Positions 38,374-50,343 of a stretch of DNA of 64,000 bases are shown piece by piece. The stretch is from Chondrosia reniformis (taxonomy: Eukaryota; Porifera; Demospongiae; Chondrillida; Chondrillidae), in NCBI GenBank assembly GCA_947172415.1, contig OX359192.1, positions 2,916,501 to 2,980,500 of the forward strand, in the 5' to 3' direction. The notes below the pieces were generated by a model, which was not told the DNA's origin, searched no databases, and saw only the letters and a list, made by a program, of their open reading frames with translations. A program made the translations under genes and the position numbers. Numbering within the stretch: position 1 is the stretch's first letter; every line of letters begins with the position of its first letter.

Positions 38374-41300
38374 TCATATCACTAAGCCTGGCCCTTCAAC
38401 ACGTGACTGAATCAAACTATCAGCAATGTCACGCCTTTGAATAATTTCAAGGGCTGTGATTAAGCAGGACAAAGTTCCTTCCAGTCCATGATCTAGACGC
38501 CATTGCTTGAGCATTCTCTCACCTGGAGAGAGACTGGAGGCCATTAGGAGTGTTGGAGTGGAAAAGGATGCCTGCCGCATCCTCATCATCAGCCTAGATG
38601 TTCCTGAGAGGTTCATCTGAATCTGAGCAGGAGCAGATTCCCTTTTTGAATTTCTGGTTGCACTAGGAGAAAGCTCTGCGGATGATACTTCAAAGGAGTG
38701 TAGCTCTACAGCACCAAATCCGAGTATCTCACCAAGCTCCCACCAAGACTTTCCAAGCAGCTTGAGAATCACCTTAATGTCATCCTCAGTCACCAATTCT
38801 ATAAAGTAAAACAGGTATCCATGGTAACCAAACATCACATATAACATGCTCAGGATAACTAATATACAGAATACAGTATGACAATATATCAAACAAGCAA
38901 ACATACCAAGCTCATCTTCCACTCCTGAGCAGTCAATGCTTTCTTCCTCTGTTGATCCAAACCACCGGATGAGGCCAGAGAGAAGGGTGACATCATTACC
39001 TGCCTCACACTGGATGGTTCGCGGTTGCAGCCTCTCTATGCTGTCATCCAAAACAGCAAAGTGGTGCCCCGAGTCTCTGGAACAAGAGCACTCAATGCAG
39101 ATGTCATAATCAAGCTGGGGCATGTACTGCTGAATAATGTCGCTGAGTGTTGCCTTCAGGAACATCAACGCTGTTACACAGCCATCTGAATCCAGCAGTT
39201 GGGCGGTGGACACCGAGGAGAAGGAGCTTTCATTTGGATGTGCTGCGTTGCCAAAGAATTCATCCACTTGTACCCAAATTCTTATCCAATCCTCTCCTTG
39301 CTGAAGGAGGAGGGTGAGTGAAGACTCCATTTCAAATGTGGCCAGTCCATTGTAGATGTGGAAATTCTTTGGATACGTCTTGATGCATCGCACCAGCATG
39401 CGAGGAAACAGACCAGAAGGAAGGTATCTTCCTTTGAACCGAAAGTACAGTGGCTCAATATTGCACTCTGGTTCAGTGAAGAGGAAATCTGGTGGGAAAA
39501 CAGTGACTAGTGCCGGGCTAATGACAGAGCCCACACTTGGGGTAAGTTGCATAGTGCTAACTGACTGACTGGCAGATATAACCTGGTTGCTTTCATCCAT
39601 GCACACAAGAAGATCCATTTTGTGCAGCAACAGAAGCAGCCTAACTTTAAGGCTTTCAGGCATGTGATCTAGGGCAGCATTGATGAGTGGGAGCTCAATT
39701 TTGCCATTGGTCTTCACCTGCATAATCAGGCTTTTCATTTTTCGAAACAGCTTAGAGTTGGCAGGATGTGTGATGGAAAATATGGAACTGGAATAGCGGG
39801 CAAACCATGATGGATCTGTTATCACAACATCCTTCAGAGCATACATGTGGGATGGGTGAAAAATGACAAGGTTGTCATGGAGGAATTCCATCAGCTGGCA
39901 AACTTCCTCTGAGGACATGCAGAATCTGGATATTGTGTCCGTGAACTTTGATATTGCCACCAGTGGCTCCCCAGACCTAGCAAACGATTTCACCTCAGAT
40001 ATAGCATCCAACCACTGGATTGGAACTTGCTGATGGCCATATCTCTTAACCACATTTTGAATACCCATCCTTAATTCACTGATGTTAGATACATCTAAAA
40101 TGGAAGATGCACTTACTGTGAATTGTTGATTTGTGAGAATAGAATTTGAAAATGGGAGATCAGTGAGTGCGTTTTTCACTGCAGTGACTTGACTGTGCAG
40201 GTGTCGAGAAGCAGGGTTTCGGTCAGAGTGGGTCCCCACAATTATAACCTTATTGTTGGCCAAATGCTCTTCAAGATGCATCTTGGGCATGTGAATGTAT
40301 ATGTCCATCATTTCCATGGTGAGATGCTCAAGGTAGGTACGGGAGGTATATCCTATGTCAAACTTCTGGGATCCATTGGTATGTGTGGAAACCATAGACA
40401 TAGAGCTTCCATAGCGGGTTAGACTCTGTGTTGACATAAAATTACGAGATGTATCGAAAACCATCAGGGCAAGAGCACGCTTTGTAAAAAAGAGTGGCTT
40501 CAGTAAGCTGTGCACCTCCGCCCCTGGCAGATCTAGGACTCGTGCTTGTAAAACTGGAATGAGACTGCCATTTTCCTGCTTCTGTTCCAGTCCACAAACA
40601 AGTCCTTGAACCACATCACTAGGCAGGCGAGGTACAGCCATCTTAGAATCACCCACATCATCAGCGGCTGAAATTGGCTCTGGGCTAGGAGATATGCTGT
40701 TGTGGTGGTGTGGAATGGATCCATTACCACTAGATGGAGTATCTAGCTGTATGTGATTGGTCTTGGCAGACCCATTCAGTGGTGGGCTATCCAACCCTTG
40801 AATTTGATCACTTAAAGGCTTTTTATTATTTTTGCGGAAAGATCCTATAATTCTTTTAAATTTGGAGGGATTATCAGCTTGTGTGGTTGATAAATCAACC
40901 CTATTTAATGGAGAATTGCTTTCATTATTTTTAATTGGACGTGTGCTAGGTCTTTCTGACAATGTATGTCTTCTTACAAGAGGACTACCATCCAGCTGGC
41001 CCTTTACCTTAAAATCTTCCAAGTCATCAGTTGTGGAAGCCTTTCTATGAGGCAATGGAGGAAGATTACGGCTTGGTAAAGGAGGAGGTGCTGTTGGAAG
41101 ATTTGCAGTTAAGCTTGGCACATTTGGCTGCTGCATATGATTAGACAAATCTTCAACAACAGCTCTCAATCTGCACTCTTCAACAGAGTAGGCTTTATCA
41201 TTGCTCTGCCAAGGACCTTCTTTGAAAAGTACCATTGGCTCTGAGCTCATATTGTGAGTAAGTGACGAAGGTTCCGTGTTCAAGAATGGCTCTCCCTTCA

Positions 41301-50300: not shown

Positions 50301-50343
50301 GTCGGAGCGCTATCTCTCTGTTACTAAAACTAACCTTTGACAT
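38374..50343 (-). CDS. SH3-SH2-tyrosine kinase-Roc-COR-death domain fusion protein
   Basis: Exons (minus): 50343-50335, 49774-49697, 48068-48021, 47604-47504, 46334-46215, 45664-45559, 45137-45035, 44924-44862, 44559-44448, 44380-44290, 43820-43762, 42965-42764, 42680-42594, 42105-41943, 41591-38907, 38798-38374. The total is 4452 nt, 1483 residues, all 15 junctions in phase. SH3 about 10-75; SH2 about 80-185 ([19 protein letters not shown]); kinase about 190-447 ([28 protein letters not shown]). Roc GTPase: P-loop GPEGAGKTS (~532-540), switch DLPG (~801), THSD (~901), split by a ~260-residue polar insert with the SH3-ligand-like [19 protein letters not shown]-like region to ~1340, then a death domain ([15 protein letters not shown] ... 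ERMLKQW ... DIADSLI) with a ~50-residue insert. Shared exon sizes (9, 120, 87 nt) tie the kinase half to CSK. An alternative is two genes: a kinase ending at 41938 and a Roc-COR-DD gene from ATG 41673. Confidence 0.82.
43214..43282. repeat. 23-bp perfect inverted repeat (hairpin) in fusion-gene intron
   Basis: Arms TTCCTGTATGGTTTGGCTAC.. (43,214-43,236) and its exact reverse complement (43,260-43,282), with a 23-bp loop rich in CTCTAGAG. Lies in the intron between the exons for the hinge region and the HRD loop. Could be a tiny foldback element or form an RNA hairpin in the intron. Confidence 0.8.

Follow-up and report, generated by a model that had tools for sequence, protein, structure and literature searches.

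One review sorts ROCO proteins into three groups and describes DAPK1 as the sole type in which the kinase precedes Roc-COR (PMC6337361). The same review states that GTP on the DAPK1 Roc domain is reported to inhibit the kinase and that Roc-COR is important in dimerisation; a second states that disruption of nucleotide binding does not lower DAPK1 kinase activity (PMC4104024). Here, we report the analysis of a window of 64,000 nucleotides from the sponge Chondrosia reniformis (contig C4, positions 2916501-2980500; the genome searched comprises 117,379,552 bases in 15 contigs), which contains a multi-exon gene on the minus strand, 50343..38374, that very probably encodes in a single chain a tyrosine kinase of Csk descent followed by a Roc-COR-death domain module. 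We refer to this gene as the fused gene, and to matched database proteins by the handles P0001, P0002 and so on.

Three described systems resemble this architecture in part. Like DAPK1, the fused protein has its kinase ahead of Roc-COR, a C-terminal death domain and no leucine-rich repeats (LRR), an order that an earlier note on this DNA had recognized; the kinase, however, is a Csk-type tyrosine kinase with SH3 and SH2 domains, whereas that of DAPK1 is a calmodulin-regulated Ser/Thr kinase. The fused protein also differs from DAPK1 in that it has no detected ankyrin repeats and its Roc domain carries a large proline-rich insert; a comparison of its Roc-COR-death domain part with a single DAPK1-like sequence from this genome revealed no demonstrable relationship. 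CSK itself shares the SH3-SH2-kinase order, the Csk clade, the lack of an activation-loop tyrosine, the catalytic residues and an SRGRS motif, but the fused protein has about 1000 additional residues, which make up the Roc-COR-death domain part, and altered residues in the SH3 pocket. LRRK1 and LRRK2 likewise hold Roc, COR and a kinase within one chain; in contrast to the fused protein, they carry LRR, and a Ser/Thr-type kinase follows COR.

Domain architecture of the fused gene

The encoded protein comprises, in order, SH3, SH2, a Csk-lineage tyrosine kinase, Roc, into which a long proline-rich stretch is inserted, COR and a death domain. Splicing by hand gave 16 exons and 15 introns encoding 1488 amino acids, with an unbroken frame and GT-AG borders at each intron. 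Comparison with relatives exposed an additional intron of 69 nucleotides, bordered by GTGAGT...TTGCAG (written GTGAGT...CCTTGCAG), whose length is a multiple of three and which holds no in-frame stop. The 23 residues that it could encode are missing from P0001, and without them the two flanks match up position for position (aligned segment PSSYPIETLARS). The refined model thus comprises 17 exons and 16 introns and encodes 1465 amino acids: the unbroken frame described in the earlier note over 1,483 codons holds, and its count of 15 introns falls one short. The least certain part of the model is the first exon of 9 nucleotides (MSK). The queries of the Pfam scan and of the protein search with the Roc half date from the 1488-residue stage and still contained the 69-nucleotide intron.

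In that version, Pfam detects SH3_1 (26.5 bits), SH2 (62.3), PK_Tyr_Ser-Thr (280.5), Roc (28.4) and Death (32.1), all above their cut-offs, with SH3, SH2 and the tyrosine kinase in the expected order. The Death match (32.1-33.1 bits against a cut-off of 22.6) covers profile positions 44-84, and the portion preceding the long loop is unmatched. COR-A scores 29.8-30.2 bits, below its cut-off of 35.3; the same stretch reaches 34.9 in the genome scan and 35.9 when its neighbours in frame are added. A profile comparison with hhalign at 99.5% spans the end of Roc and COR, so that COR directly follows Roc. The COR-like region and the death domain that the earlier note had proposed are accordingly retained, as are its Roc motifs, the P-loop, DLPG and THSD, all of which are present.

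In the numbering of the 1465-residue model, the kinase motifs GTGEFG, VAIK, HRDLAARN and SDLG lie at 204, 221, 318 and 337, and the death domain match starts from 1415. The G1 and G3 motifs are separated by about 260 residues. Much of this stretch is an insert rich in proline and serine and of low conservation, within which PPLPxRxxP is invariant in the aligned proteins (6 of 6). Pfam finds no ankyrin repeats in the fused protein at E 0.01, and neither LRR before Roc nor a kinase after COR.

The kinase-Roc junction

The two halves meet where the exon ending at 41943 (AAG/GTTAGT, phase 1) is spliced to the exon starting at 41591 (TTTTTCTTTAG/C), exactly the junction given in the earlier note. 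In a ranking of 31 introns, taken from the models of three kinase genes of the window, its donor (score 9.1) is tied sixth and its acceptor (8.8) fourth. Across the minus strand, 20 of 4581 GT and 41 of 4072 AG dinucleotides score as high, the true sites included. In the spliced form, no methionine falls between the end of the kinase and the P-loop.

A second sequence contains both halves. When 5.8 billion proteins were searched with the Roc half, five matches emerged among the 7980 scored candidates, those that shared the most words with the query, and a profile search returned five proteins, two of them new, among 7976 candidates chosen in the same way. P0001 (jgi, 1160 amino acids) is 46% identical over 99% of the Roc part and runs in one frame from the kinase C-lobe through the same linker and Roc-COR to the death domain (junction segment KCMLERFKADSTEELQSPALTSRTAKTRAIPSSYPIETLARS), that is, it shares the architecture from the C-lobe on. 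Pfam matches in P0001 above cut-off include the kinase (95.1 bits), COR-A (41.6) and Death (35.6). It is unbroken at four intron positions of the window (13/14, 14/15, 15/16 and 16/17), whereas P0002-P0004 appear to run into introns at 15/16 and 16/17, and P0001 is therefore most easily explained as spliced RNA. In P0003, the linker ESKVIPSSPSLTSYRRRPNQIPAS forms a separate block ahead of the Roc exon. The rebuilt exons and the Pfam matches agree on an SH3-SH2-tyrosine kinase continuing in one frame into Roc-COR and the death domain, and P0001 bears this out from the kinase C-lobe on.

Lineage of the kinase

The best match of the kinase among solved structures is CSK (1k9a, 371.7 bits), ahead of ABL1 (293.7), and it is 43-44% identical to rat CSK. 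With the kinase and linker as query, 3685 of the 7974 proteins scored passed 1e-60; 13 of the best 120 entered a tree of 22 rows. On one side of a branch with support 100/99, this tree gathers 15 Csk rows and a clade of two, the fused kinase and P0010, which are joined at 100/100 on a long stem; the placement of this pair among the Csk rows has support of 16/0. In smaller trees, the fused kinase falls outside rat and sponge Csk (94/90 with 14 rows; 95/92 with 15 rows, the C-lobe of P0001 added). P0010 (339 amino acids) is identical at 198 of 339 positions (59%, the highest among the matches listed) and third by bits. The two top rows of the search, P0008 and P0009 (841-842 amino acids), match in kinase domains only, at 38% and 34% identity. 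The C-lobe of P0001 shares 61 of 84 positions with the fused kinase; the figure falls to 45 of 82 for rat CSK and to 39 of 84 for either of the two neighbouring Csk genes compared. The CSK lineage named in the earlier note is therefore upheld. The catalytic lysine, HRD and DxG are present, and tyrosine is missing from the activation loop; the catalytic motifs are intact in P0010 as well.

Standalone Csk-like genes lie in tandem near the fused gene on the same strand (Table 1), so that ordinary Csk function could be covered by them and the fused gene may be regarded as an extra paralogue. Two of the four Csk-like genes in the tandem keep HRDLAARN and DFG; the HRN/DFH and EFH copies suggest decay or pseudokinases.

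An origin of the fused kinase as a recent copy from this tandem was considered and rejected: its identity to the two copies compared is only 39-42%, and it forms its own clade with P0010. Intron positions also oppose such an origin, the HR/DLAARN intron being absent and three extra introns lying upstream of that site.

Going by the trees and alignments, the fused gene is a diverged Csk paralogue, the ROCO/death domain half of which would have been gained before the sponge and the organism of P0001 split.

Affinity of the second half

In hhalign comparisons, the family profile matched the Roc-COR proteins P0006, which has a TIR domain, and P0007 at 99.5% (E 3e-22, 451 columns). Against Roc-COR sequences of the same genome, the values were 75.7% for the LRRK COR, 30.0% for the LRRK Roc and 4.0% for a Roc-COR cluster on contig C2. 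Among structures of the Protein Data Bank, 4wnr (Leucine-rich-repeat protein, 5.8e-5), which we take to be CtRoco, ranked first, closely followed by the Roc domain of LRRK2 and Rab GTPases, all aligned at the P-loop. All three BLAST matches of the Roc-COR-death domain half in the genome fall within the fused gene, with no other match found. On these profile comparisons, the second half is a strongly diverged ROCO module, with no demonstrated derivation from DAPK1.

The genome also contains LRRK-type loci on contig C14, with LRR+Roc and COR+kinase open frames. On C2, Roc-COR open frames are clustered, and in two cases noted there a Death match on that strand follows 2.5-3.3 kb further downstream (COR 598024-598491 with Death 600993-601241; COR 1405791-1406228 with Death 1409494-1409706), hinting at an expanded Roc-COR-death domain family in the sponge.

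Possible mode of action

What the sequence itself shows is the architecture, the fact that it recurs in a second sequence, and catalytic and P-loop motifs that are intact; from there on we infer every regulatory step. The SH2 domain would bring the fused protein to phosphotyrosine sites, where the kinase, having all catalytic motifs, could phosphorylate the tails of Src-family kinases or similar targets; we put forward Src tails as the substrate only tentatively. Roc-COR may be a dimerising switch, dependent on nucleotide, that governs the proximity or activity of the kinase, and control of the kinase by Roc-COR is, by analogy, conceivable at a similarly guarded level. The death domain would recruit the protein into death domain assemblies and so set its location; potential partners exist, given at least 142 death domain matches in the genome (150 of 220 candidates scored). 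The conserved PPLPxR in the Roc insert could recruit SH3 proteins in trans. With the SH3 domain of the fused protein altered, this motif is likelier to be such a docking site than a ligand in cis, and autoinhibition through an SH3-PPLPxR contact in cis was set aside on account of the changed pocket residues.

Contrary evidence and alternative explanations

Several observations weigh against a single-chain, functional Csk-ROCO protein. The gene model is a prediction from genomic DNA and from comparison with relatives. In P0001, the first 45 residues, up to KFSVKSD, have no match and look unspliced, so that the N-terminal part is missing or unspliced, and Pfam detects no Roc there at E 0.01. P0002-P0005 were compared from the linker or the Roc part on, and P0010 ends before the junction and thus informs the kinase clade only. 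The Roc match of the fused protein (28.4-29.4 bits against a cut-off of 27) is marginal, its best stretch being the P-loop part, and that of P0005 reaches only 21.5 bits, below cut-off. The G4 motif drifts in relatives (THME in P0001, SHSD in P0002, AHSD in P0004), and DxxG is lost in P0005. Compared with 1k9a, the SH3 domain has W replaced by H, P by Q, Y by C and the Y of AKYNF by C, positions of the usual ligand pocket, so that the pocket is not conserved; the SH3 of the neighbouring csk2, in contrast, keeps Trp and Pro. Structure prediction, a check proposed in the earlier note, was uninformative either way, the AlphaFold models of the Roc-COR exon (6 rows) and P0001 (7 rows) being poor, with mean predicted local distance difference test scores of 38.5 and 36.7, respectively. 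Finally, exon 14 read through its donor meets a TAG one residue on, near the point at which the standalone Csk genes end, and the 69-nucleotide intron, if retained, would supply an ATG, in frame, from which a Roc-only form could start.

Given these last two features, additional short isoforms are possible, and the alternative that survives best is a fusion that is real but optional, with a kinase-only form (intron 14 retained) and/or a Roc-COR-death domain form (started in the 69-nucleotide intron) also being made. The stop codon within the exon 14 donor and the stop-free 69-nucleotide intron, with its length a multiple of three and its ATG, speak for it. Against it, that stretch is absent from P0001 and intron 14 lacks a canonical poly(A) signal; we consider the optional fusion unlikely, although more credible than the alternatives that follow.

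A second alternative, to which we give somewhat less weight, is that the protein serves mainly as a scaffold that docks through SH2, PPLPxR and the death domain, with GTPase or kinase switching unused. It would accommodate the drift of G3 and G4 in relatives, the altered SH3 pocket, the large Roc insert and the invariant PPLPxRxxP. Opposed to it are the kinase catalytic motifs, intact in the fused protein and P0010, and the GKT of the P-loop, which is kept in the fused protein and in P0001-P0005.

That the gene arose from DAPK1 by exchange of the kinase and ankyrin part for a Csk kinase appears improbable. The order of kinase, Roc, COR and death domain without LRR is the same (by the group definition in PMC6337361), but the hhalign comparison with the DAPK1-like gene of the genome, which encodes ankyrin repeats, Roc, COR and a death domain (locus L067, C4:351001-361000), was insignificant: the probability was 10.6%, with the alignment limited to the P-loop, and 7.2% when the death domain was compared, the target being a single sequence. 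As controls, two other ROCO sets, P0006/P0007 (80.0%) and the LRRK COR (61.9%), match that gene better, and the fused family itself fits the TIR-Roco P0006 and the Roco P0007 far better than it fits that gene. The exchange is thus unsupported. When the 20 kb at C4:341001-361000 were scanned crudely for motifs, no kinase was found beside the L067 gene, which is therefore named here by its ankyrin-Roc-COR-death domain content only.

The erroneous joining of two same-strand neighbours, a Csk-like kinase and a Roc-COR-death domain gene, is very improbable: the read-through TAG of exon 14 does lie about where csk2 and csk3 stop, but P0001 holds both halves in one frame, the junction donor and acceptor are strong and phase-matched, the spliced form has no methionine between the kinase and the P-loop, and the 351-nucleotide gap has no AATAAA or ATTAAA, a weak point given that none occurs within about 900 nucleotides past the final stop either.

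Features of the window and its surroundings

The coordinates of the fused gene and of the neighbouring Csk-like genes are collected in Table 1.

Table 1. Exons and motifs of the fused gene and neighbouring Csk-like genes (positions in the window unless stated otherwise)
Feature	Position	Strand	Basis or remark
Exon 1, proposed start MSK	50335..50343	-	ATG then donor AAG/GTTAGT; tiny
Exon 2, SH3 part 1	49697..49774	-	Pfam SH3_1 residues 19-61; splice model
Exon 3, SH3 part 2	48021..48068	-	Pfam, splice model
Exon 4, SH3 part 3; His and QxxC against CSK Trp and PxxY	47504..47604	-	Alignment to 1k9a, splice model
Exon 5, SH2 with FLVR motif	46215..46334	-	Pfam SH2 residues 80-156
Exon 6, SH2	45559..45664	-	Pfam, splice model
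Exon 7, SH2 end and SH2-kinase linker	45035..45137	-	Pfam, splice model
Exon 8, kinase start, glycine loop GTGEFG	44862..44924	-	Pfam PK_Tyr_Ser-Thr residues 197-446
Exon 9, VAIK lysine and aligned glutamate	44448..44559	-	Pfam, structure alignment, motif check
Exon 10, kinase	44290..44380	-	Pfam, splice model
Exon 11, kinase, SSRGRS opposite CSK RSRGRS	43948..44021	-	Alignment to 1k9a, splice model
Exon 12, kinase, activation loop without tyrosine	42764..42965	-	Alignment to 1k9a, tree rows, motif check
Exon 13, kinase C-lobe	42594..42680	-	Alignment to 1k9a, splice model
Exon 14, kinase end	41943..42105	-	Donor AAG/GTTAGT
Exon 15, kinase-to-Roc linker, no methionine	41517..41591	-	Linker shared with P0001; separate block in P0003
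In-frame intron, 69 nucleotides	41448..41516	-	Counterpart residues missing from P0001
Exon 16, Roc and COR	38907..41447	-	Pfam Roc, COR-A; profile match 99.5% to P0006/P0007
G1 P-loop GPEGAGKT, residues 514-521	41317..41340	-	Position converted by hand
APPPLPSR in Roc insert	41068..41091	-	Position converted by hand
G3 DLPG, residues 783-786	40522..40533	-	Position converted by hand
G4 THSD, residues 883-886	40222..40233	-	Position converted by hand
COR-A match, residues 976-1119 (1488-residue model), 953-1096 (1465-residue model)	39592..40023	-	Pfam; converted by hand
Exon 17, death domain and stop	38374..38798	-	Pfam Death above cut-off; 57% identity to P0001
csk3	29454..26947	-	Seven exons modelled from SH2 on; ends ..LPESACK
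csk2	25687..21709	-	Ten exons; 510.7 bits to CSK; ends ..LPESA
Third Csk-like gene, pieces	about 7742-10516	-	HRD aspartate is Asn, DFG is DFH; open frames only
Fourth Csk-like gene	L039, about 5880-9800 (about 0.2-4.1 kb below the window)	-	EFH for DFG; open frames only

Elsewhere in the window, two intronless protein kinase genes on the minus strand (3061-3978 and 16076-17092), near-identical by eye and bearing HRDVTDKNVLI, seem to belong to a duplicated block; about 35 rows of the genome search share the match range of this kinase, 26 of them on C14 (93 of 669 candidates scored). Tandem repeats occupy 31754-33039, 33376-34779 and 61866-62645, with periods of 17 (78 copies), 20 (72) and 28 (28), respectively. 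Several frames are open across the first two of these repeats, which lie where the local GC skew is strong (-0.364). Gene pieces at 53102-54044 (minus strand) match a PA domain and M28 peptidase, and a weak match to a Helitron-like N-terminal domain at 2182-2694 (minus strand; 23.6 bits, below the cut-off of 28.9) might represent Helitron remains.

Significance

We know of no other ROCO with a tyrosine kinase. Titles and abstract beginnings in the open literature, which include few subscription papers and were consulted for the best matches only, disclosed no described tyrosine-kinase ROCO, which is not proof of absence. The accessible text of PMC8662651 contains no mention of the Roc domain, Roco or the death domain, and that of PMC6337361 and PMC4104024 no mention of a tyrosine kinase; in the available part of PMC4053784, the sole ROCO named is an LRR-ROCO GTPase. 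We regard the fused gene as a real ROCO variant that has apparently gone undescribed so far.

Each of its domains is known and their order mirrors that of DAPK1; what is unexpected is the combination, which recurs in at least one other sequence. The fused gene would be a second kinase-first ROCO, perhaps independently assembled. Through it one could ask, as in a natural experiment, whether Roc-COR serves generally as a plug-in switch that works with unrelated kinases. More speculatively, and with more doubt than we attach to Roc-COR control of the kinase or to the Src substrate, it could represent a fourth kind of ROCO, an old GTP-gated Csk-type kinase maintained beside ordinary Csk in more than one lineage (sponges, as we assume), which would let death domain assemblies switch Src-family signalling off (or on) via a Roc-COR dimer. 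The gene may tie the regulation of Src-family kinases to death domain assembly, within one chain, in an early animal lineage.

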